Both the position numbers and the translations under genes were made by a program. A DNA stretch of 64,000 nucleotides from Flavobacterium ammonificans (GTDB lineage: Bacteria > Bacteroidota > Bacteroidia > Flavobacteriales > Flavobacteriaceae), in contig NZ_AP025185.1 in the NCBI RefSeq assembly GCF_020886115.1, forward strand, positions 868,001 through 932,000. Reading direction: 5' to 3'. The notes beneath the pieces were generated by a model that did no database searches, was not told the origin of the DNA, and saw only the letters and a list, made by a program, of their open reading frames with translations. The number at the start of each line of letters is the position of its first letter. Within the stretch, counting starts at the first letter, position 1. Shown piece by piece: positions 48,287-61,820 of this stretch.

Positions 48287-49210
48287 TTAAAAATTGTAAC
48301 AACTACAAGGTCTATTATCTCTTCCTTCAATATTGAAGTTTATATAAAAAGAATGAATTCCGTTATTTTGAGAATTAAATTTTGTTATCGATTTATCAAA
48401 TGCATATCCAAATAAGTAGTTTTCATAAATTCTAATTCCTGCAAAAAGACCTATTGAAGATTTGAATTCAAAATTTGCACTTGCATATATTTCATTTTTA
48501 CTATTAAAGTTCATCGAAATTAGAGTACTAACTGGTGCCCCTTTTACTAATCGAGTTAGAAATGTAGGTTGAATGTATATATTTTCATTTGTATAAATTT
48601 TGTAACCTGAACTTAAATAATAATTCATGGATTGTTGAGAAATAATTGAATTTCTTGAATCTAATAAATTAGGTTTAATTAGATTAGGAATTGATGCACC
48701 AATAAAAAAATTCTTATTATAAAGATAAAACCCTGTGCCAAAAATGTAATTTAATGTTTTTTGTTCTCCAATTCCAGCAATGAATTCAGAGGGATTCTCA
48801 ATTGATAGAAGACTATAGTCTACAACATAGTTTTGAACTCCAGCTTTAATACCCATTGAAATTTGCCAATAGTTATTTAAGTATAAATGGTAAGCATAAT
48901 TGGCAACTAATTTTGTTTCTTCTTCAGTTCCTCTTTTGTCAATTTCAGCATTGACACCTAATCCCATTAATCTGTCAGAAATTGCTTGATGACCATTAAA
49001 AAGAATTGTTTTTGGTGCGCCAGGAAATCCTACCCACTGTGAACTATATACGCTAGTTAGACTTATGCCTCCATTACTCCCTGCATAGGCTGGATTATAT
49101 GCTAAAGGCGTTAAGCTAAAATTAGACAACTTAAAATCAGCCTGAGCAGATAAGCGCATAAAACCAAATGCTATAAACAAAAAAAGAAATTTTGATTTAA
49201 TTATGTGCAT
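48287..49210 (-). CDS. PorP/SprF-family type IX secretion membrane protein
   Basis: The protein has 307 residues from MHIIKSKF; the signal peptide ends LSAQ. The mature start DFKLSNFSLTPLAYNPAYAGSNG is the PorP/SprF signature, followed by an outer-membrane barrel (about 30-300). SprF-like proteins are needed to secrete or anchor the type B T9SS protein encoded beside them. The upstream gene, a type B protein, ends 1 base before this start, so the two make an operon like sprB-sprF. Confidence 0.93.
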   Translation of the reverse strand: MHIIKSKFLFLFIAFGFMRLSAQADFKLSNFSLTPLAYNPAYAGSNGGISLTSVYSSQWVGFPGAPKTILFNGHQAISDRLMGLGVNAEIDKRGTEEETKLVANYAYHLYLNNYWQISMGIKAGVQNYVVDYSLLSIENPSEFIAGIGEQKTLNYIFGTGFYLYNKNFFIGASIPNLIKPNLLDSRNSIISQQSMNYYLSSGYKIYTNENIYIQPTFLTRLVKGAPVSTLISMNFNSKNEIYASANFEFKSSIGLFAGIRIYENYLFGYAFDKSITKFNSQNNGIHSFYINFNIEGRDNRPCSCYNF

Positions 49211-49211
49211 A

Positions 49212-52200
49212 TTAATTTGTACTGTCAATTTGTAAATAACCGGTTAATTCGGTTTGTTTATCTACAAATGTATTATTGTAAACTAAAATGAAAAAATAGG
49301 TTCCAGAGGGTAAAAAGCTGTCTTTCATATACACCCCCGAAACATTAGCTTTGCCTTTAAAAGAGTTATTCATATTGTCATATCCGGTAGTTTCCCAAAC
49401 TAATTTTCCATATCGATTGTAAATTTTCACCGAATTATCTGGGAAATAGGAGATCTCATCAAAAGTTAATTGGTCGTTTAATGAATTTCCATTAATGGTA
49501 ATTAAGTTGTATGCAGTAATATTACATTTAAAAAGATCTACTTTAACAGCTAATCGTTGTGAACTTTCACAACCAGTTGCTTTATCTAGAGTTGTTGCAT
49601 AATACGTTGTATTGTCTTGTAATAATGTTGGATTGTCAATAATCATTCCATTTGTAAGGGCATCAAACCATAGGACAGAGTTGCCTGTTATAATTAAATT
49701 TGAAATAACAGGATTCTCTTCAGTACAGAATTTTTGGATTCCATCTCCTTCGGGTGTTGGTAATTTTTGGATTGTAACAGTGGTTTGAAAACGATTAGCA
49801 CTTTCACAACCATCAATAGTTTGAGTAGCAAAATAGATAGTTCCGTTAGTTAAATCGTCATTATTATTTAAAGTTGTTGAACCCGTAGCTGATGCATACC
49901 ATTGAATAGCAGTTCCTGTTGCAGTTAAATCTGAAATCAAAGGTGTTGGATTAGCACAAAATACTTGTATAGGGTTGCCTGTTGGGGGTGAAATGTTTGA
50001 AATAACATTTATGGTCATGGTAGTTGTCGTTGCACATTGACCTGAATTTGGTGTAAAAGTATATGTGGTAGTTGCAGTATTATTAAGAGCTGGTGACCAA
50101 GTTCCTGTAATTCCATTTGTTGATAAATTAGGCAAATCTACTAATGGATTCCCATAACAAATTGTAGGTGCTTGAGTAAAAGTAGGAGTAATTGGTTTTG
50201 ACACTAAAGAAAAATTAAAAAAATTATTTGAATAATCACACTCATTAACTGAGTTATATGGAAAAAATTGATTTGAGTTATTAAAATTAATTATTGCAAA
50301 TACATCCGTTAAAGATAAATTTGATAGTTCAATAGTAACAGTTGCTTGTGTTGATGGAGCTATTGAAAAATTAACCATTTCACTTTTAATTAAGCTACCT
50401 GGATTAGTGTTATTGCCTTCAAAAATCAATATGTTGAATTCTGTTAAAACAGTTTTAGATCCTTGATTTTCAATTGTTAAATCAAAACTAGTAATCTGGT
50501 TATTACAATCATAAACTATATTATCTACTTGGCTAATTATTAAATCTGGAGCCGGATATATTGGACAGCCCGAAATGTCTCTAATTGTTTCTTGGGCCAT
50601 AAAACTATTTAATGGTCTTAAAGTTGCGCCTAAACAACTTCCTAGAGAATTATAAAACTGTAATCCGTGATTTTGTTGTTGAATCGGTATGGTTAAGTCA
50701 TCATTGATATTGACATTAAAATAGGCATATTGATTCCATATCTTTCTAGAAGGAGCCCATGGTTGTCCATTACTTTTAAAAGATTGAATTCTTCCCTTAA
50801 AAGGGCCAAGTGTTGGGTCGTCTGAGGTGATTATTATGTTTGATTGATTATCATTATTTATATCACAAATTACAGGTCCTTCAAATGCTGTGCCAGACAA
50901 TGAAGAAAAATTTGATAATACTATAGGTGTTGTGCCAGAACCATTAATTATTCTTAATTGGGTTTCATCACGATAAATAATTTCTTGAATTCCGTCTTGA
51001 TTAAAATCAAACATAGAAATTTTTGTAGCTCCACTATTATCAGTTGTAATTAATTCCCATTTCAAGACTAAATTGTTATTAATAAATTTGTAAGTAAGGA
51101 GTTTATATGGCCTACATACCCCTATTTCTGGAGCTCCATCTCCATCCATATCTCCTATAAAAGGCACTCCAACCAGATCTAAATTGGTGCCAGTAGGTAT
51201 ATTAATGCTAGAAATAATATTATTTGTGATTGGGTTCCATATATATAATAAACTAGAGGAGGAGTTACCAGAGGTTGAAACTACAACATCCAATAGACCA
51301 TCTAAATTGATATCAGCAATTGAAGTAAATCCATCCTTATTTAAAGGATTATTAATTGGTGACATAGTATTTCCAGAAGTGCCGTTAGTATTGGTAATAA
51401 TTATATCATAAACTGTTTTACCTGCAGCTAATTCTAATCCAAAATTATTGGTTAAATCTGCTGCTACAGTTAACGAGTAGACCCCATTAAGTAAATTGTT
51501 TAGTGAAGTTTCCATTCTTCCAATACCGTTACTACCTCCATCAATTAATTTAATTCCTGTTTGAGCATTAAAGATTTCATTAAAAATATATACTTCAGGG
51601 ATTCCATCTAAATTAAAATCTGCAATACCTAGAGTTCCACCTCCTTTATTATTACCAGGGGTATTTGCGCCATATTGTACATTAGATTTCCATATTAAAT
51701 TCCCATTAATATCATAACAAAACAAATACCTTTGATTAATCGCATTATTACCTGAAGTACTTGATGCAAAAATGATTTCCCCTAATCCATCATTATTTAC
51801 ATCCGCAATAAGTATACTACCGGGGGCTTCCCAATATATATATGGTGTTGGAAAAGTTGAAATTAAACTTCCATTTGACCCATTAAAAATATTTATTCCA
51901 GATGTAATTCTAGGGTTATTTACAGTCATACCTGTTGTTCCTAGAGCAACAATTTCAGTCATACCATCATTATTTATATCACCACTAACTATAGAAGACA
52001 TTGTAATAATTGGCGTATTAGTTGACCAATTCTGAATTATAGATAAGGGTTCAGGAGTAAAATCAATTTGGCATTCTGGCTGACAAATATTAAAATAAGT
52101 ATTATCAACACATGGGCAATCAGAATCAAATCCATCCACAAATCCATCATTATCATTATCTAAACCATCCGCACAAATTTCACTACATTGTAAAACTTCG

Positions 52201-53279
52201 ATGGTCATCGTAGCTGTAGTACTACATGCACCAGCTATTGGTGTAAAAGTATACATAGTTGTAGCTGTATTATTTAAAGCTGGAGACCATGTTCCTGTTA
52301 TTCCATTGTTGGAAGTTAATGGCAAACTGATTGTGCCACCTGAACAAATAGGCGCTATTTGATTAAAAGCAGGCGTTGTAAGTGATATAGGGGGTAAATT
52401 TAAAACGCTTTGAATCACACATCCTTCAGGACTTCGTATCCAAATATTTTGATTTCCTGGACTAATTGTAAGTGAATTAGAAGTTGAGTAATTGGTGCCA
52501 TTAAGCGAATATTGAGCAGTATTTACATTGGACAATAATTCAACAGTATATTGACTGCAGGTTGAACTTAGTATAGTATAACCAGTATAATTAAAAGTGT
52601 TAATTGAGGTTGCTTCATTATCATATTGAATTGAACCTACAGCAGCTCCATGATTTATATTAGCTATCTCATTTAATAAACTAGAATTGAATTTATAATA
52701 CCCTTTAAGTCCAACTTGAGTAGATGGATTGGGTAGAGTGTTCATGTTGTTTTTAATATCATTTTCACTTCTACATACATTCCATATTCGCACTTCATCA
52801 ATAGAGCCAAAAAATTGTTCAAACTCTTGAAAGTTTGAAGTTCTATTTCCAATTCCAGTGTTTATATTATTTTGCAATAAATTCCCAGTGGCAGGATTTT
52901 TAATTACCAAGCATCCATTCACATAATACCTCACAAATTGACCGTCATAAGTGCCTGCAACATGATACCATTTATTTAATTCTAAAGCATAGGGATTGTT
53001 CATTAAGTAAAACCCATTGCTTGTGCTAATTTCAAATGTTTTAGGTCGTAATAAATAATTTAGATTGGAGGAGTCAGTATGTTTTGAAACAATATTCATA
53101 GCATAGGCTGAAGTTGCAGATATGAAAATTTTTGCTTCAACGGTGAGTTGGTTACCTGAAATATCTAAATCACCAATATTCACATATTGATTCGTATTAG
53201 TCAGTTTAAGACTTTGCCCAAAAACTAAATGTGTAAAAAGGAAGCTAATCCAGAGCAGTATTTTTAGTTTCAATTTCAT
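49212..53279 (-). CDS. Large surface protein with type B T9SS sorting domain
   Basis: The protein has 1355 residues: signal peptide (ending LVFGQ, about 1-22); a LamG/concanavalin-like domain (about 23-205, with KWYHVAGTYDGQFVRYYVNG); Ig-like stretches (about 300-360, 1030-1160) with the repeated phrase GITGTWSPALNNTATT; FG-GAP/VCBS-like repeats (about 420-800; DINNDG, DFNLDG, DINLDG calcium-loop motifs) that should form a propeller; and a C-terminal gliding-motility-type domain (about 1265-1355, SVKIYNRYGKLVWET, SGTYFFILVYN). Secreted by T9SS and held on the surface, probably an adhesin. It is followed at once by its PorP/SprF partner. Confidence 0.92.
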   Translation of the reverse strand: MKLKLKILLWISFLFTHLVFGQSLKLTNTNQYVNIGDLDISGNQLTVEAKIFISATSAYAMNIVSKHTDSSNLNYLLRPKTFEISTSNGFYLMNNPYALELNKWYHVAGTYDGQFVRYYVNGCLVIKNPATGNLLQNNINTGIGNRTSNFQEFEQFFGSIDEVRIWNVCRSENDIKNNMNTLPNPSTQVGLKGYYKFNSSLLNEIANINHGAAVGSIQYDNEATSINTFNYTGYTILSSTCSQYTVELLSNVNTAQYSLNGTNYSTSNSLTISPGNQNIWIRSPEGCVIQSVLNLPPISLTTPAFNQIAPICSGGTISLPLTSNNGITGTWSPALNNTATTMYTFTPIAGACSTTATMTIEVLQCSEICADGLDNDNDGFVDGFDSDCPCVDNTYFNICQPECQIDFTPEPLSIIQNWSTNTPIITMSSIVSGDINNDGMTEIVALGTTGMTVNNPRITSGINIFNGSNGSLISTFPTPYIYWEAPGSILIADVNNDGLGEIIFASSTSGNNAINQRYLFCYDINGNLIWKSNVQYGANTPGNNKGGGTLGIADFNLDGIPEVYIFNEIFNAQTGIKLIDGGSNGIGRMETSLNNLLNGVYSLTVAADLTNNFGLELAAGKTVYDIIITNTNGTSGNTMSPINNPLNKDGFTSIADINLDGLLDVVVSTSGNSSSSLLYIWNPITNNIISSINIPTGTNLDLVGVPFIGDMDGDGAPEIGVCRPYKLLTYKFINNNLVLKWELITTDNSGATKISMFDFNQDGIQEIIYRDETQLRIINGSGTTPIVLSNFSSLSGTAFEGPVICDINNDNQSNIIITSDDPTLGPFKGRIQSFKSNGQPWAPSRKIWNQYAYFNVNINDDLTIPIQQQNHGLQFYNSLGSCLGATLRPLNSFMAQETIRDISGCPIYPAPDLIISQVDNIVYDCNNQITSFDLTIENQGSKTVLTEFNILIFEGNNTNPGSLIKSEMVNFSIAPSTQATVTIELSNLSLTDVFAIINFNNSNQFFPYNSVNECDYSNNFFNFSLVSKPITPTFTQAPTICYGNPLVDLPNLSTNGITGTWSPALNNTATTTYTFTPNSGQCATTTTMTINVISNISPPTGNPIQVFCANPTPLISDLTATGTAIQWYASATGSTTLNNNDDLTNGTIYFATQTIDGCESANRFQTTVTIQKLPTPEGDGIQKFCTEENPVISNLIITGNSVLWFDALTNGMIIDNPTLLQDNTTYYATTLDKATGCESSQRLAVKVDLFKCNITAYNLITINGNSLNDQLTFDEISYFPDNSVKIYNRYGKLVWETTGYDNMNNSFKGKANVSGVYMKDSFLPSGTYFFILVYNNTFVDKQTELTGYLQIDSTN

Positions 53280-53295: not shown

Positions 53296-53604
53296 TTAAA
53301 TTTTATGATGTATCAGTAAACAAGCTACATAAACCGAAAATTTGTTATTAGGACATTCTTGCGATTTAGGTTGGTTGTACAACGAAGAGCGAAAGTGGTA
53401 TATTTCTTTATCTGTTTTTTTGACTTGATTAATTCGTTCTTTAACACTTTCAACACTTTCGTTTTTAACAGCTAAGAAATAATTCATTTTTCCAAAACGA
53501 AGTAGTAAAACACCATTCTCAATTGCATAATCAAACGAAGATCTTTTGCCTAAGGTTAAATGGGTAAAAATGGGTGCGGATATAGTTTCTTTTGTTCTTT
53601 TCAT
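53296..53604 (-). CDS. Unknown 102-residue protein
   Basis: No signal peptide or membrane helix. The protein is basic and has a C-terminal YHFRSSLYNQP motif and a final VYVACLLIH. I do not recognise the family. Its start overlaps the stop of the 223-residue gene by 4 bases, so the two are translated together and probably act together. It lies just before the large type B gene (16 bases) but is cytoplasmic in type, so this seems an inserted pair and not a part of the secretion system (inference). Confidence 0.75.
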   Translation of the reverse strand: MKRTKETISAPIFTHLTLGKRSSFDYAIENGVLLLRFGKMNYFLAVKNESVESVKERINQVKKTDKEIYHFRSSLYNQPKSQECPNNKFSVYVACLLIHHKI

Positions 53605-54272
53605 TTATTTTGTAGTTCATTAACTAATACTTCAGCTTTAGCAAAAAGTAACATTTCTATTGTTGATATATTAGAGTTTAACTCTTTTGCGACGGATTTT
53701 AGAAGTTTTATGTATTCTTCATAAAATATTCTATTTGAAAGTCTAGACCAATTTTCAATTCTTGAAATTTCTTTTATTTCTGAATTACCTTTTTTTATTA
53801 AATTATTGCGGCTAGAAAGAATAGGAAACAGAATTTTAGCCTCGTTATTGGATAAAATCTGTAGAATATTTAAAGAACAAGAAACTCTTGCATCAAAAAT
53901 GGCATAATTATTCCAATCGTGAACAACCAAAGCCTTTGACCATGAAGCAACACCTTGGTTTCCTTTCAGAATAAGTTCTTCTGCATTGTTTGATCTATAT
54001 ATATTTAGAGAAGCAACTCCGTTAGTTTTAATTCCACCCCATTTTACAATATAATACTCGATTAAATCACCTTTAATAGTTTCATTTTTTTCATTTTTCC
54101 ATAAAGTATGAAGCTGTTTTTTTAAACTAATGTTCTTACTGTAGTTATTACCGTCTGGCAGTATTATATTTTTTGGTAAATGATTTTCATTTACGCACCA
54201 ATTGAACCAACCGTTATTTTCAGTTAAATGTGTTTGTGAAAATTCAAGTAAAATATTTTTTAATTCTTCCAT
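53601..54272 (-). CDS. Unknown 223-residue protein, possible OGG-fold
   Basis: Cytoplasmic and helix-rich. The segment GVASWSKALVVHD followed by YAIFDARVSCSLN (about 104-133) resembles the part of 8-oxoguanine-glycosylase-fold (OGG-like) proteins where xASWSK and YDxRV recur. The helix-hairpin-helix and catalytic lysine/aspartate cannot be placed with certainty, so a DNA glycosylase role is only a guess. It is followed, with a 4-base overlap, by an unknown 102-residue gene. The pair sits between two secretion genes. Confidence 0.7.
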   Translation of the reverse strand: MEELKNILLEFSQTHLTENNGWFNWCVNENHLPKNIILPDGNNYSKNISLKKQLHTLWKNEKNETIKGDLIEYYIVKWGGIKTNGVASLNIYRSNNAEELILKGNQGVASWSKALVVHDWNNYAIFDARVSCSLNILQILSNNEAKILFPILSSRNNLIKKGNSEIKEISRIENWSRLSNRIFYEEYIKLLKSVAKELNSNISTIEMLLFAKAEVLVNELQNK

Positions 54273-54299: not shown

Positions 54300-55841
54300 C
54301 TAATTTTCAGTAATGTTTAGTATTAATCCTGACACTATTGTTAAACTTTGGCCAGAGTTTAGTACGATTGGTAATGAGATATTCAATTCATTTTGCAAGA
54401 ATGTATCTGATAAGTTTCGCGTACTTGAACTAGTGACCCCATTTTGTCCAAATTGAAAAACCTCGGCTTTATATTTTTGTATTAATATATTTCCAAAATC
54501 TGCAATTATCCAATTTCCATACCCACTCCAATCTACCCCAGATGAAATGTATCTAACAAAATTACCTGTCCAATTTATTGTTGGTGGAGTAGACCCAACA
54601 ATAATATTTGTTATAGTCCAAGTTTTACCTGACGGGACTTGGTAAGTACCCTGGCTATTAATTGCAAATACTCTTCCTGAATTTTGAGTTGTTTGACAAA
54701 TATATTTTGTTTTACTATTTTCAATTTCGTTACTTTCTAGTATTCCATTATTATTTAAATCTAAACCAACTTCAATTTTTATTCCGCCGTTAGGACAATC
54801 ATTGCTAGCTAAAGGTACAGTAGTTGTGTTTATTAGTGAATTTTTTCCATTGACTCCAGCTGCACCTTGTGGTCCTACTAAAGCAATACCGCTCCCCCAA
54901 GCCCCACTAGTTTTAGGGCCAAACAACAAATTAGTAGTCGTGTTAATGTAAAAATCACCATTGTTTCCAGTGCTATTTGTCGGGTCTTGATTACCGTTTA
55001 GGATAGTTTTTCCATCTAAGCCATTGGTGCCGTTTGTTCCTGCTATGCCTTGCTGTCCTGTAGCACCTTGTATTCCTTGAGCTCCAGTTGCCCCGCGTAA
55101 TGCTGTTAAAAATTGTGCTTCTGTTCCGGTATTACCAGTATTTAGCCAAATTTGGTAAGCACTTAATCCGTTAGTTCCATTGGTTCCATTAGTCCCTGCA
55201 ATTCCTTGCGGTCCTGCAATTCCTTGTGGGCCAACTAGTGGTACACCACTTCCCCAAATCCCATTTGTTTTTGGTCCAAAAAGACTACTTGAAACAGTAT
55301 TAATATAAAAATCCCCATTGGTTCCAAGGCTAGCAATTGGATTAGTTGTTCCATTTAAGAGAGTTTTACCATCTAATCCGTTGTTTCCAGCAGGGCCTTG
55401 TGTTCCAGCCACTCCTGTATGTGCAGCATAGAGCGCAAACGGAACATAAGTAAAAGGCTGATTGCTAATTTCTATAAAATGAGTTGATTGACCACTTGGA
55501 TCTAGGGATACAATTAAATTTTTAGCAGAACCATCCCAATTGATGGTGCTAAATTGAGTTGCTATTCCAGCTTTTCGTGTACCGGTACCAATGACAACAT
55601 TGACCATTCCAAATTCATCAGTTTGTGTGTTGATGGTTTCTTGATAGTCTAATGAAGAAGAGGCATTAAGAATTTTAAATTCTAAAGTAATGTCTTGATT
55701 TACCAAAGGCAAACGGGAGTTGTCTGCACCTGGCAATTCTTCTGTATTTGGATTTAAAATTACTGCTTGATAGGTAATTCCATTTTGAGCATAGCTCCAA
55801 AATGTAAATAATAAAATAAGGAAGGTGTAGTGTTTTTTCAT
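54300..55841 (-). CDS. Secreted collagen-like repeat protein
   Basis: The protein has 513 residues with a signal peptide ending WSYAQ (about 1-18). An N-terminal beta domain (about 19-140, GITYQAVILNPNTEELPG) is followed by collagen-type G-x-y tracts (about 146-158, 203-224, 250-277, 325-335) with GPQGIAGPQGIAG, GTNGTNGTNG and related runs, broken by GDFYIN...FGPKT segments that occur twice. The end has DUF7151-like text (LDLNNNGILESNEIE) and a C-terminal domain (about 380-513). It is followed by no clear sorting domain. The neighbours are a barrel protein and a T9SS protein, so it is probably exported to the surface. Confidence 0.85.
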   Translation of the reverse strand: MKKHYTFLILLFTFWSYAQNGITYQAVILNPNTEELPGADNSRLPLVNQDITLEFKILNASSSLDYQETINTQTDEFGMVNVVIGTGTRKAGIATQFSTINWDGSAKNLIVSLDPSGQSTHFIEISNQPFTYVPFALYAAHTGVAGTQGPAGNNGLDGKTLLNGTTNPIASLGTNGDFYINTVSSSLFGPKTNGIWGSGVPLVGPQGIAGPQGIAGTNGTNGTNGLSAYQIWLNTGNTGTEAQFLTALRGATGAQGIQGATGQQGIAGTNGTNGLDGKTILNGNQDPTNSTGNNGDFYINTTTNLLFGPKTSGAWGSGIALVGPQGAAGVNGKNSLINTTTVPLASNDCPNGGIKIEVGLDLNNNGILESNEIENSKTKYICQTTQNSGRVFAINSQGTYQVPSGKTWTITNIIVGSTPPTINWTGNFVRYISSGVDWSGYGNWIIADFGNILIQKYKAEVFQFGQNGVTSSSTRNLSDTFLQNELNISLPIVLNSGQSLTIVSGLILNITEN

Positions 55842-55850
55842 TTTGATGTG

Positions 55851-56468
55851 TTATTTAATAACATAGTGTAATCCAAATTGTAATTGATGGGTCGTAAAGG
55901 CTAATTTTTGTGTGGTTGAATTACTTAAATTGATTCCTTTACAATAATCATATCCTAAACTGATGTAACCCGCAGCAGCAAGGTTGTATTTTACCTGTAT
56001 ACCTAATGCTGGAGTTGCTAATAATCCACTGAACTCTTTTTCTTTAGTCAAGTCAAAATAGGTTCCGTTGATGGTCTGCTTACCACTAATGATAGTTCCT
56101 AAGTTCATACCTAAATGAGGCATAATGTCAAAACTACTACGTCTGTCTAATAGAGAGTAGGATAGACGGGATTGAATTCCCAGATATTGTGTATCCCAGC
56201 TATAACTATTACTTGTGTTGCCGCCTACGCAATTGTATTCATTCAGGGATAAGCCTATATGCACATTTATTTTTTCATTAGATAGTGGCTTAGTATAACC
56301 CAATTCATAAAAATTACCTGTTCCATTTTTTAAGTTAGGATTGGTAGCGCCATTGGAATTTTTAAAATCATAAGTAGTAAAATTTTTCCCTGTATAGAAA
56401 TAGACTTCTTGTGCGAAACTATTTTGAGAAATTATATAAAAGCTGATAATTAGAAATAGTTTTTTCAT
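55851..56468 (-). CDS. Outer-membrane beta-barrel protein
   Basis: The protein has 205 residues; the signal peptide ends SFAQ. About eight amphipathic strands end in HQLQFGLHYVIK, as in small outer-membrane barrels; VYFYTGKNFTTYDF near the start is typical of Bacteroidota barrel proteins. It starts inside the stop of the upstream T9SS gene (4-base overlap) and is 9 bases before the collagen-like gene. Its function is unknown; a supporting part of the same surface structure is likely. Confidence 0.72.
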   Translation of the reverse strand: MKKLFLIISFYIISQNSFAQEVYFYTGKNFTTYDFKNSNGATNPNLKNGTGNFYELGYTKPLSNEKINVHIGLSLNEYNCVGGNTSNSYSWDTQYLGIQSRLSYSLLDRRSSFDIMPHLGMNLGTIISGKQTINGTYFDLTKEKEFSGLLATPALGIQVKYNLAAAGYISLGYDYCKGINLSNSTTQKLAFTTHQLQFGLHYVIK

Positions 56469-56953
56469 TTTGATTGTATGATTTGAGTGTAATAATTCAA
56501 TTTATCTGCAGTTAAACGTACTAGATAAGTTGCGGATGGTAGTTGTAGGTTTGTAATAGAAAGTATTTTTTCGTTTGGTTTTTTTGTTTCTTGATATACT
56601 ATTTTACCTGTTATGTCAAATAGTGTAATCTGAATGCTTGTATTTATTAGTTGTGAAAATTGAAAATAGACTGTGTCAAAGAAAGGATTGGGATAAGTTT
56701 TTGTACTTATAATCGAAGCGTCATAGGTTTTAATATAATTGCTCCACAGACTTTGTTGGTATCCTTGCGAAATAGTAAGATTGTTTTTTTGAGAAGTACC
56801 AGTTAAACTCTGCTGCCCTATAGACTGAGATATGTACATTCCATTAGCAATGGTAAAACTATTACCTTGAGCAGTTACCATTTGGCGTTGTAAGTTTTGA
56901 CTATAAAGAGTGCTACCAATTGCTAGAAATACTACTAGTATTGTTTTTTTCAT
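56465..56953 (-). CDS. Small T9SS type A sorting-domain protein
   Basis: The protein has 162 residues: signal peptide (ending STLYSQ, about 1-18), a short middle with SQSIGQQSLTG..., then a type A sorting domain (about 85-162) with TYPNPFFDTVYFQFSQ and the closing YYTQIIQSK. Most of the mature protein is the sorting domain. It begins the three-gene run with the barrel and collagen-like genes and overlaps the next by 4 bases. Confidence 0.88.
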   Translation of the reverse strand: MKKTILVVFLAIGSTLYSQNLQRQMVTAQGNSFTIANGMYISQSIGQQSLTGTSQKNNLTISQGYQQSLWSNYIKTYDASIISTKTYPNPFFDTVYFQFSQLINTSIQITLFDITGKIVYQETKKPNEKILSITNLQLPSATYLVRLTADKLNYYTQIIQSK

Positions 56954-57102
56954 TCGTGTTTTTAGTAAAATTGAAAATGCGGGGACAGTTCGAATTAAAA
57001 ATAGCCTAACTCATTTAAGCATTTCAAAATATCGTTGGAAATCATTTTTTCCACTATTTTTATTAAGTCAATGATTTGATTATTAATATTATATATAAAA
57101 AT

Positions 57103-57128
57103 AAAAACGCCTAATTGAAGGCGTTTTT
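57103..57128 (-). terminator. Terminator of the kelch gene
   Basis: AAAAACGCC (57103-57111) pairs with GGCGTTTTT (57120-57128). Read on the minus strand a T-rich run follows. It lies 21 bases after the stop of the gene at 57149. Confidence 0.85.
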
Positions 57129-57148
57129 TGATGTATTTCTACTATATA

Positions 57149-58507
57149 TTATACTTTTTTAAGCAGTTTTGGGAGTAAAAGTAGGTCTTTAAGTCGTTTG
57201 TCTTCCAAGTTTTTTTGTTCCAACTGTAGTTGGTTCTCTGGTATACCGGTCAATTTAGAAACTTTATTGAGCAAGCCATTAATGGCTTGTTCTCTTCGTT
57301 TAATAACGGCTGAGGTAGTTTGAGGTTGCGCTGGGTTTTCAAAGAGTTCGTTGATTTGGTTCAAAGAGACAAATTCATCTATAGAATCCATTAAGAAATA
57401 CAACAGCTTTTTCTCGTTTTCTTCAAAGTGTTGTATCGGTTTTCTATTGTATAAAAACTGGTCTTTATTGCTGTCATAAACAATTCCTTTGAAAGGTTTT
57501 TGGAATGAAATGATTCTTTTTTTATAGCCTATTACAACTAAACCCAAAAATAGTATTCCAATGAATCCAATTATAAGATAATTATTAAAAGTTGTATTAT
57601 CCTCAACAAAAAAAGGAACTGTTTCAATGTATTTTCCTTTTAAATCAGTGATGGTCGTTTTTTTGAAATAGTATTTATTTTCAGTTGTTGAAAATATACC
57701 GTGAATTGTATCTCCAACTACGTAATGTTGTTTGATCAACTCGTAATTTTTAAATTGATATTTCTTTGCGATCTTATTAGTAAAATCTATTTCAATAATA
57801 TAAGCATCAATTAAATACAGTTTATTTTTAATTTGGATATTTTTTGTAAAGTCGCTTAAGATGGTAGGATTATATTGCCCAACATTTGTCCAAGACATAG
57901 TAGGTAAATGGAGTTTCCAGAGTTTCGCCTCAACGGGTTTGCTTATTAATACGTCCTCATCATCACCTGTATATCCACCAAACACAAATAGATTATTGCC
58001 ATTTCGATAGGTAAATGCATGTGTTCTTCCTTCTGGTTTTGATTTACCAATTGTTTGTATTTGATTCCACTCTCCACTATTTAAATCATACTTGGTAATT
58101 ATATTTTTATAAGTAAATAGCCCATAACCGCCAAAAAGATACATTTCGTTGCCATATGAAAATGGTGCACTTTTATATTGGTTTTTTTGTAAAAAAGAAT
58201 GGTCAATTCGTACTATAGAGTCATTTCTAAATTCTAATACAGGGCCACAACCTTTATGTACTAAGTATGTTTTTGTTCCAATTCCAAAAGGAATATACTC
58301 ACTAATTTTATCAGGATATTCGGTATGCTTGAAAGGAATAAGCTGCTTTCCTTTGTAAACAAGAGAATCGTTGATGATAATAATGGGTTGTTTTGATTTT
58401 GCTTCTTTGAACAATAGCAAATCATCATAGCGTTTCAATTTTTGCCCCTGACTTGTGGTAGCAATCAATAGAGAAAATAGCAGCAGTAGTATATTTTTTT
58501 TGACCAT
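57149..58507 (-). CDS. Kelch-repeat membrane protein with cytoplasmic winged-helix-like domain, copy 1
   Basis: The protein has 452 residues: signal peptide (about 1-21); a periplasmic beta-propeller-like part (about 22-305) with kelch motifs (YLFGGYGLFTYKNIITKYDL, then NLFVFGGYTGDDED); one membrane helix (about 308-327, LIIGFIGILFLGLVVIGY); and a cytoplasmic part of about 125 residues. The last has FEENEKKLLYFLMDS, then FVSLNQINELFEN, then SAVIKRREQAINGLLNKVSKL, in the order of an OmpR-type winged helix with a basic second helix. A membrane one-component regulator is inferred; direct DNA binding is not shown. The copy at 58677 is a close paralogue. The gene ends with its own terminator. Confidence 0.8.
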   Translation of the reverse strand: MVKKNILLLLFSLLIATTSQGQKLKRYDDLLLFKEAKSKQPIIIINDSLVYKGKQLIPFKHTEYPDKISEYIPFGIGTKTYLVHKGCGPVLEFRNDSIVRIDHSFLQKNQYKSAPFSYGNEMYLFGGYGLFTYKNIITKYDLNSGEWNQIQTIGKSKPEGRTHAFTYRNGNNLFVFGGYTGDDEDVLISKPVEAKLWKLHLPTMSWTNVGQYNPTILSDFTKNIQIKNKLYLIDAYIIEIDFTNKIAKKYQFKNYELIKQHYVVGDTIHGIFSTTENKYYFKKTTITDLKGKYIETVPFFVEDNTTFNNYLIIGFIGILFLGLVVIGYKKRIISFQKPFKGIVYDSNKDQFLYNRKPIQHFEENEKKLLYFLMDSIDEFVSLNQINELFENPAQPQTTSAVIKRREQAINGLLNKVSKLTGIPENQLQLEQKNLEDKRLKDLLLLPKLLKKV

Positions 58508-58541
58508 GTTGTGAGGGAAACTTATGAGTATGAAATAAAGT

Positions 58542-58549
58542 CAAATATC
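58542..58549 (-). promoter_or_regulatory. -7-like box of the first kelch gene
   Basis: The minus strand reads GATATTTG, one mismatch from TAnnTTTG, 34 bases before the start at 58507. Weak. Confidence 0.3.
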
Positions 58550-58676
58550 TAATTTAATTGGTAGCTATGTAAAATAAATTACTAGAAAATGCAATTTCCA
58601 CTAATAAAGTAATATTAAAATCCCGCATTTCAAGCAGGTTGTTCTACAGCATTTAAATTTATATTGATAAGAAATT

Positions 58677-60047
58677 TTAATAATTTAACTTTATTTCTTC
58701 AAGTAAATCAGGCAACAACAACACGTCTTTTAAGCGTTTGTCTTCAGCGTTTTTACGTTCTAATAGTAAATCCGATTCAGGAATATCAGTAATCATTGCA
58801 ACTTTTGCAATTAAACTATTTACCGTTAATTCTCTTCTTTTGATTATTGCGGTAACAGTTTCGGTTTGTTTTGAATTTTCAAATAGTTCATTTAATGTGT
58901 TTAACGAAACATATTCGTTAGGGTGTTCTAATAAAAAGTGAAGCACCTTTTTTTCATTCTCTTCGAAGGAAGTTATGGTTTTTTGTTTGAATTCAAATTC
59001 GTTTGTTTTTCTATTGAATATAATTTTAGCACTCGTATTTTTTTTACTTTTTCTTATAAAAAAGAAAATCAAGACAGCACTAACACATAACACAAGCACT
59101 CCCAAAACACCATATTTTTCAATTGGTATTCCACCATAAGGCAAAATAAACGGCTCACTACCTAAATATTTGCCTTTAATATCTTCGATTGCCTTTTTTG
59201 AAAAATAAAGTTTTCTGTTGTTGTTTTCAAAAACACCGTATATAGAATCATTTTTTGCCAACATAGCTTTTGGAACGATATGGTTAGAATAATCGTATTT
59301 TTTAACTGTGTTGTTTTCCAAATCTACTTCTAGAAGAATTTGATGAAATAGATATAATTTGTTTTTTATTTGCACACCATCATATTGGGAAGTAATAAGT
59401 GCGGAATTATACGTACCCATTTTTTTCCAGGTCATTGTTGTTAAATCTAAGTCCCAAACAATTGGTTTGACGTCATTAACCTCTCTAATGTTTTTAGGGT
59501 CGTTTGCAACCCCACCAAAAATATACAAATGATCATTTTTCCTATAACTAACTACTTCACAACATCTTGCTTCAGGAAATTCTTCTCCATAAGTTTGCTC
59601 TTGGTTCCACTCTCCGTTCTTAAAATCATATCGTGTAATGATGTTTTTGTAGGTAAAAAGACCATAACCGCCAAAATAATGAATCTGGTTGTTGTAAACA
59701 AATGGAGTGGTGCCAAACTGGCTATTGTGTAAATAGGAATTGTCTATTCTAACTAAAGAATCATTTCTAAATTCCAATACGGGTCCGCAACCTGAGTGTG
59801 CTAAAAAAGTTTTCTTACCAATATTTAATGCAAGATATTCGTTTAATTTACCTGGAAAAGAGGTTGATTTTAATTGAAATCGTTTCCCATTTTTATAAAA
59901 AAGGGAATCGTTAATGAATATAATAGTTTTTTGTGTTTTGGCTTCAATAAACAAAGAAATACGATCATTGTAATTCCAAGTTTGCCCATAATTATTGAGT
60001 GAAAATAGTAAAGCAATAAGTAAAAATTGGATTTGTTTCGTTCTCAT
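58677..60047 (-). CDS. Kelch-repeat membrane protein with cytoplasmic winged-helix-like domain, copy 2
   Basis: The protein has 456 residues with the same layout as the gene at 57149: signal peptide (ending NNYGQ), kelch repeats (HYFGGYGLFTYKNIITRYDF, LYIFGGVANDPKN), one membrane helix (about 309-332) and a cytoplasmic domain with FEENEKKVLHFLLEHPNEY, SLNTLNELFEN and TAIIKRRELTVNSLIAKVA. Blocks such as GCGPVLEFRNDSxVRID are nearly identical in both copies, while other parts differ, so the duplication is old. It lies 169 bases upstream of copy 1; the gap has no hairpin. Confidence 0.8.
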   Translation of the reverse strand: MRTKQIQFLLIALLFSLNNYGQTWNYNDRISLFIEAKTQKTIIFINDSLFYKNGKRFQLKSTSFPGKLNEYLALNIGKKTFLAHSGCGPVLEFRNDSLVRIDNSYLHNSQFGTTPFVYNNQIHYFGGYGLFTYKNIITRYDFKNGEWNQEQTYGEEFPEARCCEVVSYRKNDHLYIFGGVANDPKNIREVNDVKPIVWDLDLTTMTWKKMGTYNSALITSQYDGVQIKNKLYLFHQILLEVDLENNTVKKYDYSNHIVPKAMLAKNDSIYGVFENNNRKLYFSKKAIEDIKGKYLGSEPFILPYGGIPIEKYGVLGVLVLCVSAVLIFFFIRKSKKNTSAKIIFNRKTNEFEFKQKTITSFEENEKKVLHFLLEHPNEYVSLNTLNELFENSKQTETVTAIIKRRELTVNSLIAKVAMITDIPESDLLLERKNAEDKRLKDVLLLPDLLEEIKLNY

Positions 60048-60298
60048 TTTTTTGGGGATAAAAAATTAATGTAGGAAATGTAGCAATAATTACTTTATTA
60101 ATTATAATAAATCAAAAGAAAGTATGGTTTCTAGTATTTTCATTATAGCTATTTGGCTGTTAATCAATTGAAACATCAACTTTAGAGACTAACTTCATTT
60201 TTTAAATTAGTCTGCAAATTAGTGGTCAAACTTATTTGTACTTTAATAAAGTGAAGCATCTTACTTTTAAAATCATAAATGCCTTATATGGTTCAAAT

Positions 60299-60390
60299 TT
60301 TTTAATTTGTCTGTGAATCATTGGCTGGATTGCTTCGTCGTTCCTTCTAGCAATCACTTCGTGCCTTGGTGCCTTCGTGGCATAAAACAA
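60299..60390. repeat. Remnants of dispersed repeats in a 405-base gap
   Basis: The gap 60048-60452 has no gene. Its first two thirds are AT-rich. Around 60330-60385 there are phrases (ttgcttcgtcgttcc, cttcgtgccttggtgccttcgtggc) of a kind found repeated between genes in other Bacteroidota. Only one copy of each is in this window. The terminator of nuoN takes the end of the gap. Confidence 0.35.
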
Positions 60391-60427
60391 TAATAAAAAA
60401 ACCCGCCAAAATCACTCTTGACGGGTT
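60391..60427 (-). terminator. Terminator of the nuo run
   Basis: AACCCGCCAA (60400-60409) pairs with TTGACGGGTT (60418-60427), with one G-U pair. Read on the minus strand a run of T (60391-60399) follows. It lies 26 bases past the nuoN stop. Confidence 0.85.
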
Positions 60428-60452
60428 ATACTATATAATGTAAATGGATTTA

Positions 60453-61820
60453 TCACAATAAGTTTAATACTAATGATGGGAACATTCCAATAATGATATT
60501 CAAAGCAATAGCGGTAAAAGCCACAGCATAGATTAAGAATGGTTTTCCTGTGCGTTCTTCGTTAGATTCTTTGGTGTACATGGCCAAGATCAATTTGAAA
60601 TAATAACCCACACTAATAATCGAGTTGATTACAGCCACAATTACTAAGGCAATAAATCCATTTTCGATGGTTTGAGAGAACAAAACCAATTTAGCAAAGA
60701 ATCCCGCGAAAATTGGAATACCTGCCATAGAAAGCAAAGAAGCCGTTAAAATAGCTGCTAAAAAGGGATGTGTTTTTCCTAATCCGTGGAAGTTAGTAAT
60801 GTCTTCGTTGTGTTGGTTTTTGCAAACGTATAAAATCACACTAAAAGCAGCAATTCCTGAAAGCGCATATGCAGTGGTATAATACAATAAACTACTTGCC
60901 GAAGTCGATAAACTCAATAAGGTCATCAACATAAAACCAGCATGTGAGATTCCTGAGAAAGCCAACATACGCTTTACATTGGTTTGTTTCAATGCCATAA
61001 TATTTCCTACCGTCATAGAAGCCATAGAAACGGCTACGATAACCATTTTATAGGCTTCAGAGATATCAGCGTTCATAACAGACAATAATTTGTATAGGGT
61101 AGCCATAGCAACTACTTTAGCTAAGGTACTCAACAAGGCTGTTGTTAATGCTGGAGAACCTTCGTAAACATCTGGCGCCCAGAAATGGAATGGTACGGCA
61201 GCAATTTTGAAAAACATACCTACGGTCAACAATGCAATTCCAATTGGAAACCATATTGGCAATTCAGCTGATTGTGATAATTCACTTATTTCAGTTACGT
61301 CAAAACTTCCCATGGCTCCATATACCAAGCAAATCCCGAACAATAAGATCCCTGAAGCGAAAGATCCCATCAAGAAATACTTCATTCCGGCTTCGTTACT
61401 TTTTAAATTTAATCGGTCGCTGGCTGCCAAAACATATAAAGAAATAGACAATACTTCGATACCTAAGAAAAACATCGCCAAGTTGCCAAAAGAAACCATG
61501 GCTACAGCTCCCGATAATAAAAATACCTTGATAGCAATGTAATCCGAGATTTTGTTTTGATGATTTTCATAAAAATTATGTCCTAATGCCACTAAGAAAA
61601 TTGTCAGTACAATGAACAGAGAAGAAAATGTAGTAGAGAATTTACTCACCACAATCATATTTCCATAGTAAGATTCTGTTGAACCAAATTCTGAGATATT
61701 CAATCCCAATACCGCTAACAAACCAATGATGGTAACCGGTACAATTGCTTTTCTTTGATTTAGAATTTCAAATATAAGGCATAAAACGCCTAATCCTATT
61801 ATTGCTATTAATGTATTCAT
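60453..61820 (-). CDS. nuoN: NADH-quinone oxidoreductase subunit N
   Basis: Antiporter-like proton-pumping subunit in the membrane arm of complex I. The protein has 455 residues with about 14 helices. Family motifs: FFLGIEVLSISLYVLAA, FKIAAVPFHFWAPDVYEGSPA with the key lysine, and RMLAFSGISHAGFML. It begins 13 bases after nuoM ends and is the last gene of the run, followed by a terminator. Confidence 0.96.
   Translation of the reverse strand: MNTLIAIIGLGVLCLIFEILNQRKAIVPVTIIGLLAVLGLNISEFGSTESYYGNMIVVSKFSTTFSSLFIVLTIFLVALGHNFYENHQNKISDYIAIKVFLLSGAVAMVSFGNLAMFFLGIEVLSISLYVLAASDRLNLKSNEAGMKYFLMGSFASGILLFGICLVYGAMGSFDVTEISELSQSAELPIWFPIGIALLTVGMFFKIAAVPFHFWAPDVYEGSPALTTALLSTLAKVVAMATLYKLLSVMNADISEAYKMVIVAVSMASMTVGNIMALKQTNVKRMLAFSGISHAGFMLMTLLSLSTSASSLLYYTTAYALSGIAAFSVILYVCKNQHNEDITNFHGLGKTHPFLAAILTASLLSMAGIPIFAGFFAKLVLFSQTIENGFIALVIVAVINSIISVGYYFKLILAMYTKESNEERTGKPFLIYAVAFTAIALNIIIGMFPSLVLNLL

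Follow-up and report, generated by a model that had tools for sequence, protein, structure and literature searches.

What kind of protein is encoded by two adjacent genes that join kelch repeats to a short tail across a single membrane helix is the question raised by one locus of Flavobacterium ammonificans. The locus lies in a stretch of 64,000 nucleotides (NZ_AP025185.1, positions 868,001 to 932,000; hereafter the window, whose coordinates are used throughout), where the upstream copy, P0002 (456 amino acids, 58677-60047), and the downstream copy, P0001 (452 amino acids, 57149-58507), are both found on the minus strand. The first-pass annotation had suggested that the two proteins are membrane one-component regulators. 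The comparisons described below support the winged-helix profile and the cytoplasmic topology behind that suggestion, with DNA binding itself still a prediction, and each gene probably encodes a membrane-bound one-component transcription regulator with a kelch sensor and a predicted C-terminal winged helix, for which surface genes would be the likeliest targets.

Read from sequence, each protein opens like a signal peptide and continues with kelch repeats, a single membrane helix, and a tail that has positive charge next to the helix and a profile of the winged-helix type. N-terminal hydrophobic runs were located in both copies by hydropathy scan. The start of P0002 comprises residues 1-22 (59982-60047, minus strand, as are all features of the pair), with the hydrophobic run at residues 6-17 and the end NNYGQ before a putative cleavage site; the corresponding end in P0001 is TSQGQ. 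The exported kelch part of P0002 presumably runs from residue 23 to about residue 305 (59133-59981), around a Pfam kelch match at residues 116-234. The single transmembrane helix follows at residues 313-331 (59055-59111; hydropathy 2.96) in P0002 and, by Kyte-Doolittle scan, at residues 310-328 (57524-57580) in P0001, and in both copies five Lys/Arg and no Asp/Glu occur within the next 12 residues. The tails after the helix measure 124 and 125 residues in the two copies; the predicted winged helix covers residues 338-456 of P0002 (58680-59036) and the cytoplasmic tail of P0001 residues 338-452 (57152-57496). The kelch motifs, single membrane helix, and end of 120-130 residues that had been annotated from the letters were thus found in both open reading frames (ORFs), as was a hydrophobic start resembling the annotated signal peptide. 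The two proteins share 44% identity overall and 51% in the tail, and the long identical blocks mentioned in the same annotation do exist, with the longest spanning 14 residues (FGGYGLFTYKNIIT) and 12 residues (GCGPVLEFRNDS), although their extent is modest.

Kelch families were recognized by Pfam in both proteins (PF24681, E 1.5e-13 and 5.9e-12), with Kelch_6 above its cut-off of 25.3 in each (35.6 and 27.2 bits). PF24681 was matched at E <= 0.1 by 28 of 28 family members, and the family profile matched kelch propellers in the PDB. The single-sequence AlphaFold2 (AF2) model of the whole protein had a predicted local distance difference test score (pLDDT) of 40.5; a closed propeller was not readable from it, and it was not used. 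Topology was assessed over the 47 family rows in fetched neighborhoods, of which one short row was left out. A membrane helix was present in 44 of the 46 full-length rows at a hydropathy threshold of 1.6, and the side after the helix was more positive in 43 of these 44. Summed over members, Lys/Arg and Asp/Glu came to 54 and 60 before the helix and to 173 and 25 after it. Because positive charge is, by the established positive-inside rule, a mark of the cytoplasmic side, the tail is placed in the cytoplasm by this rule, and not in the periplasm, the location that the first-pass annotation had named as incompatible with its reading.

To classify the tail, three profiles were used, one of the whole protein (A1, 28 rows in the conservation count) and two of the tail (A3, 25 rows; A8, 41 rows). 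Against PDB sequences, A3 gave 15 matches at E <= 1, headed by two response-regulator sequences at 0.0034 from entries titled CosR. Further response regulators and ToxR stood below these, PhoB-type chains were among the matches, SlyA and HpaR aligned to the last part of the profile only, and two matches were unrelated. The 34 matches of A8 were mostly winged-helix proteins, including DrrD (0.0011), HpaR (0.0031), and ToxR (0.017), with unrelated matches (a homeodomain, TRIM63, and a cilia protein) beginning at E 0.096. Over its full length, A1 matched the DNA-binding part of ToxR at E 0.0014, at positions 335-423. Searched against 299 genomes, A3 matched 27, 8 of them via open frames of 228-246 amino acids (ORFs of 225-239 amino acids); a scan of one of these eight ORFs identified a response regulator carrying Trans_reg_C, and the other seven were taken as response regulators from their length.

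An AF2 model of the tail built from four sequences (pLDDT 62.5) contains two strands, helices at 26-37, 45-52, and 61-83, a further helix at 87-96, and a last strand, so that strands are followed by three helices in the order expected for a winged helix. When this model was submitted to Foldseek, 49 of the 50 matches listed (of 106) were OmpR/PhoB-type proteins, ToxR, or CadC by title, some of whose names we take to belong to the OmpR family; ToxR on DNA came first, and the lone exception by title was a chaperonin complex. Profile-profile comparisons were then made with hhalign on gap-free columns, with 60 column shuffles for each of 12 comparisons. The targets were 11 response-regulator tails (8 recruited by the query profile and 3 unselected ones from the window's own genome), the 3 unselected tails alone, and a MarR set of two sequences. 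All 49 tails gave probabilities of 95, 55, and 18 against these targets, respectively, the 25 tails of A3 gave 93, 61, and 4, and the genus-type rows alone gave 92, 38, and 12. The real score was attained by 0 of 60 shuffles in every one of the 12 comparisons, MarR included. An earlier shuffle control on gapped columns of the phylum-wide tails had given scores above 130, higher than the real one, and was taken as an artifact whose cause was not traced. MarR was rejected as the nearest kind of winged helix on its probabilities of 4 (A3) and 18 (all tails), compared with 93 and 95 for the OmpR type. The fold of the tail, which the first-pass annotation had proposed to examine, thus looks like an OmpR/ToxR-type winged helix by profiles, AF2 model, Foldseek, and hhalign, and the outcome that it had named as refuting, a structure prediction with no winged helix, did not arise. 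By these comparisons the tail is very likely a winged helix, and OmpR/ToxR type is very probably the best label for it.

Several results weigh against this assignment. The tail model is mediocre, with wing residues 435-444 (98-107 of the construct) below pLDDT 50 and no hairpin formed, and among the Foldseek matches listed none was significant (best E 0.13, TM 0.44 by query). Eight of the 11 hhalign targets came from the query profile, and with the unselected targets the probability falls to 55. The 24 phylum-wide tails alone reached 19 against all 11 targets, 4 against the 3 unselected, and 13 against MarR. Because the shuffles were beaten by MarR as well, they point to a winged helix and not to which kind. 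Trans_reg_C (PF00486) scored 16.2 bits on the P0002 tail, with a cut-off of 26.2, the P0001 tail had no winged-helix match in Pfam, and Trans_reg_C matched only 3 of 41 tails at E <= 0.05 (best E 0.011). A PF00486 search of the window's own genome returned three genes, neither P0001 nor P0002 among them. Across the 41 tails, Pfam reported 23 families, each in 1-3 members and several of them helix-turn-helix (cut-offs shown for the first member only), and NCBIfam reported no family in more than two members, the best being MsvR at 3.7e-5 (cut-offs not shown). On P0001 and P0002 themselves, NCBIfam yielded only matches far below cut-off, for example OxyR at 19.8 bits against 500. The tail goes unrecognized as a DNA-binding part by both Pfam and NCBIfam.

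Conservation within the tail is concentrated where DNA contacts might be made. The putative recognition helix of P0002 (residues 398-420, 58788-58856, helix 61-83 of the modeled construct) carries the motif KRRE and Lys-403, which is nearly invariant in A1 and A3 but not in A8. Within the putative wing (residues 427-445, 58713-58769, placed by conservation), Asp-436 and Arg-438 are invariant in all 28 rows of A1, all 25 of A3, and all 41 of A8. In five members (L004, L007, L012, L026, and L033) the tail is shorter, at 92 residues, and is missing the stretch of N-terminal strands while retaining the wing Asp and Arg. Comparison of P0002 with its two near relatives gave a dN/dS of about 0.11, indicating purifying selection, with dN at 0.087-0.093 for the tail and higher, at 0.103-0.106, for the kelch part. 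In the proposed mechanism, the kelch part would sit in the periplasm and detect a signal (perhaps a glycan, a partner, or a cargo protein) either in that compartment or on the periplasmic side of the outer membrane. Detection would alter the dimer state across the single helix, and the C-terminal winged helix would then bind promoter DNA from the membrane, making contact through the KRRE helix and the wing with its invariant Asp and Arg. Judged from gene neighborhoods, the likeliest duty would be to control cell-surface genes, namely those for proteins secreted by the type IX secretion system (T9SS) in this genus and for surface polysaccharide in some other genera.

Relatives of the pair are scattered. 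The closest named relatives of P0002, at 78-79% identity, were found in two metagenome-assembled genomes (MAGs), one of a Flavobacterium sp. and one of a Flavobacteria bacterium, and the window's own genome holds a third copy (G000:C1:1395762-1397105; L003, L103). The gene order around this third copy is common to L107 and L108, and its orthologues occur in both named relatives, at 68% and 67% identity to L003. With the whole protein as query, matches were obtained in 13 of 249 genomes of the genus and 9 of 149 of the taxonomic family, the own genome being counted each time. G320 and G359, which match over 66-80 residues only, were not counted as members; two of the nine match over part of the query, yet their ORFs carry the tail, and one sits at a contig end. 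Profile A1 matched 37 of 246 genomes of the order at E <= 0.001, many of them through the kelch part alone; across the phylum, at E <= 1e-8, it matched 29 of 395 genomes. The phylum matches include ORFs of about 500-520 amino acids from another class that span most of A1 with the tail present, and others that cover the kelch part only. Since the matches are patchy and reach another class, the layout appears, by these searches, to be old and patchy, with relatives scattered across Bacteroidota; the search for the same layout elsewhere in the phylum that had been suggested at first pass therefore found it in other classes. A search of viral contigs for additional relatives gave 21 pattern matches, none of them a relative.

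The genes downstream of the pair in the window include the T9SS-tail and collagen genes first described there. Possible targets are a protein with a T9SS type-A tail (56465-56953, minus strand; PF18962, E 4.4e-10) and a protein with collagen repeats and DUF7151 by Pfam (54300-55841, minus strand). Farther on, Pfam/NCBIfam identified a LamG protein with a CHU_C tail (49212-53279) and PorP/SprF (48287-49228). The 205-amino acid gene at 55851-56468 that had been called a barrel had no Pfam match at E <= 1, and at 53296-54272 there are two overlapping small genes, the larger of which weakly matches an OGG-like DNA glycosylase (E 0.043, 13.9 bits against 27). Scanning 56400-60500 for terminator-like hairpins gave six sites, with 1.6 expected in shuffles. 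On the minus strand, one lies upstream of the pair, after a gene read as nuoN-like (60400-60427), a weak one of five pairs lies between the copies (58622-58638), and one, reported on both strands, lies after the pair and before the T9SS-tail gene (57103-57128). The stretch upstream of P0002 (60048-60150, minus strand), a candidate control region, also occurs in the L016 relative according to alignment A5, which was judged by eye.

Neighboring genes were called around 43 loci with a simple longest-ORF script. Within the genus (19 loci in 13 genomes, counting the window and the third copy, with 1 of 38 immediate neighbors masked and unscored), T9SS type-A tails were found in 7 of 38 immediate neighbors, 0 of 36 second neighbors, and 1 of 151 further genes (Fisher 5.6e-5). 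The profile used was built from 20 tails located away from these loci in the same genomes and replaced a circular, neighbor-trained one, with identical counts. The seven tails come from six loci in four genomes and are not independent, because five belong to one LamG-type cluster. A Glycos_transf_4 (WecA/MraY-type) gene was found within 3.5 kb of a regulator in 6 of 18 genomes, each of which has 1-3 such genes, where about 0.19 genomes would be expected (P ~2e-8, with rounded genome sizes and independence assumed). One of the 18 genomes (G191) is from the window's genus, and two of the six positives share a genus. Because this gene and the distance limit were picked after looking, the result is a lead and not a test, and the T9SS context was likewise picked post hoc. 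At L121 and L132, which come from two genomes of a single genus, a Glycos_transf_4 gene has a family member on either side, and neighbors read as NusG/UpxY-like, GDP-mannose dehydratase, and epimerase fit a polysaccharide setting. A 110-amino acid protein that begins like a signal peptide and contains NQAD/NQA repeats was also noted close to the regulator, as the next gene in L115 (9496-9828) and in an overlapping-neighbor position in L116 (8091-8423).

Surface genes as targets remain a guess from this context. On the idea that the T9SS and collagen-like neighbors could be the targets, a surface-gene context, chosen post hoc, exists in part of the family; no gene was shown to be a target. Other features of the surroundings tell on the opposite side. 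Given the hairpins before and after the pair, the downstream surface genes are probably not co-transcribed with it, and a single transcript of the two is improbable. No operator was identified by upstream DNA alignment judged by eye and consensus scan, and the promoters in that scan were no more frequent than chance would give (19 found, 21.6 expected). At the 24 loci of other genera the T9SS context does not appear (1 of 49 against 2 of 212), and many members adjoin genes that read as housekeeping genes.

Another account of the tail, which we consider unlikely, is that it is a winged helix that has lost DNA binding and now serves to dock a protein of the cytoplasm, such as a component of secretion or of polysaccharide synthesis, making each protein an envelope sensor that does not touch promoters. 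The lack of an operator in the upstream alignment would agree with this, as would the polysaccharide-type transferase gene nearby in several genera, whose product could be a direct partner of a membrane adaptor. The best-conserved residues of the tail, in contrast, are basic or lie in the putative wing (Lys-403, Asp-436, and Arg-438), as DNA contacts would predict, and any one cluster of neighboring genes is common to at most 8 of the 43 loci, as would be expected of regulation in trans. It is also quite improbable that the tail is freed by regulated proteolysis at the membrane and acts as a soluble factor. One helix joined to a separately folding tail would permit such release, but nothing pointing to a protease or cut site turned up, and neither was searched for.

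The presence of two copies had also led to the idea of a heterodimer. In a tree of 36 proteins, P0001 groups with P0002 and its two relatives (support 98/98), so that the duplication seems older than the split of P0002 from these relatives. Both relatives have a P0002 orthologue at the same locus, adjoining the nuoN-like gene in L016 and one gene away from it in L015, whereas no P0001 orthologue was found in their genomes, the completeness of which is not stated. Since one copy stands at the locus in these two relatives, a fixed heterodimer is not needed for P0002, and the heterodimer idea was not supported. Pairs do recur, in the window, in L121 and L132 (around the Glycos_transf_4 gene), and in L136; single members, however, were found at 39 of 43 fetched loci, some on short contigs, and the near relatives combine one copy at the locus with the orthologue of the third copy. 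An obligate heterodimer of the tandem copies is therefore very doubtful, and the two are probably paralogues that act separately, each as a membrane-bound regulator.

A kelch part also occurs with a longer tail. Nine proteins of 838-869 amino acids (L174-L177, L179-L182, and L184; L014/L184 in G123) combine kelch repeats with a single membrane helix, located between 555 and 588, and a tail of 261-284 residues. Compared by hhalign over 11 rows, which include one protein twice and one tail of the short type, these sister tails reached 88 against OmpR-type tails and 67 against the unselected ones (real scores 40 and 33, shuffles at most 18); against the tails of the pair's family they reached 84 with all tails and 2 with A3 alone. 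The sister tail reads to us like a SARP-type regulator, a label that found no confirmation in Pfam, in NCBIfam, or in a search of the PDB with one such tail. A single-sequence search with the long sister across 60 relatives gave a match in the window's own genome only, to the kelch part of P0001. Tentatively, the short and long proteins may belong to an unrecognized regulator class of Bacteroidota in which one kelch sensor became attached to OmpR-type winged helices at the C terminus in two or more forms, one with a short tail and one with a long SARP-like tail. Such proteins would signal how the envelope fares and, with no kinase in between, would directly switch surface polysaccharide or T9SS surface proteins. 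To our knowledge, few direct sensors are known that let Bacteroidota tune their capsule genes and T9SS cargo to surface conditions. If true, the proposal would give a single-protein path from a periplasmic kelch sensor to a promoter that is simple to test; if the layout holds and the targets do not, the pair would add another membrane regulator whose domains come in a less common order. Among the titles and abstract openings listed from a search of open-licence papers, none concerned kelch-sensor membrane regulators, and absence from print is not claimed.

Among known systems, ToxR and CadC carry their DNA-binding winged helix at the cytoplasmic N terminus and have a periplasmic C-terminal part. 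Regulators of the ToxR/CadC/TcpP type share with the pair an OmpR-type winged helix, a membrane helix, and a periplasmic part, and ToxR is matched by the tail profile; in the pair, however, the domain order is reversed, with the predicted DNA-binding part C-terminal, and the sensor is different. The tail likewise resembles the C-terminal winged helix of OmpR/PhoB response regulators (PF00486), whereas the pair has no receiver domain, is membrane-bound, falls below the Pfam cut-off, and has an Asp-Arg wing stretch that matches HpaR and SlyA. By description alone, SusR-like regulators of Bacteroides offer a parallel. These are also from Bacteroidota and have a periplasm-exposed sensor with a cytoplasmic DNA-binding part near the C terminus (PMC3878776), the same order as in the pair, whose topology is SusR-like by the positive-inside rule with the DNA-binding part predicted; SusR binds maltose, and the portion of that paper available makes no mention of a kelch part. 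Similarly likened by description, Rsp of Neisseria gonorrhoeae joins a PilS receptor to the PilR DNA-binding domain (PMC10269533), so that an N-terminal membrane receptor and a C-terminal DNA-binding domain (predicted in the pair) are common to both, again without mention of a kelch part in the portion available. The layout had been described as the reverse of that of ToxR/CadC, which holds for the order of parts, but with SusR and Rsp, as far as these partial accounts go, it is not unprecedented. Transmembrane transcription regulators, in which one protein combines a DNA-binding domain and a membrane region, are enriched in Bacteroidota, and their census used Pfam models of DNA-binding domains (PMC10269533, in the portion available). 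Because Trans_reg_C stays below its cut-off here, that census probably missed this family. With its DNA-binding domain predicted by profile, the pair would belong to this class, a kind of regulator that, by the same accounts, is already known and whose domain order has precedents in SusR and Rsp.

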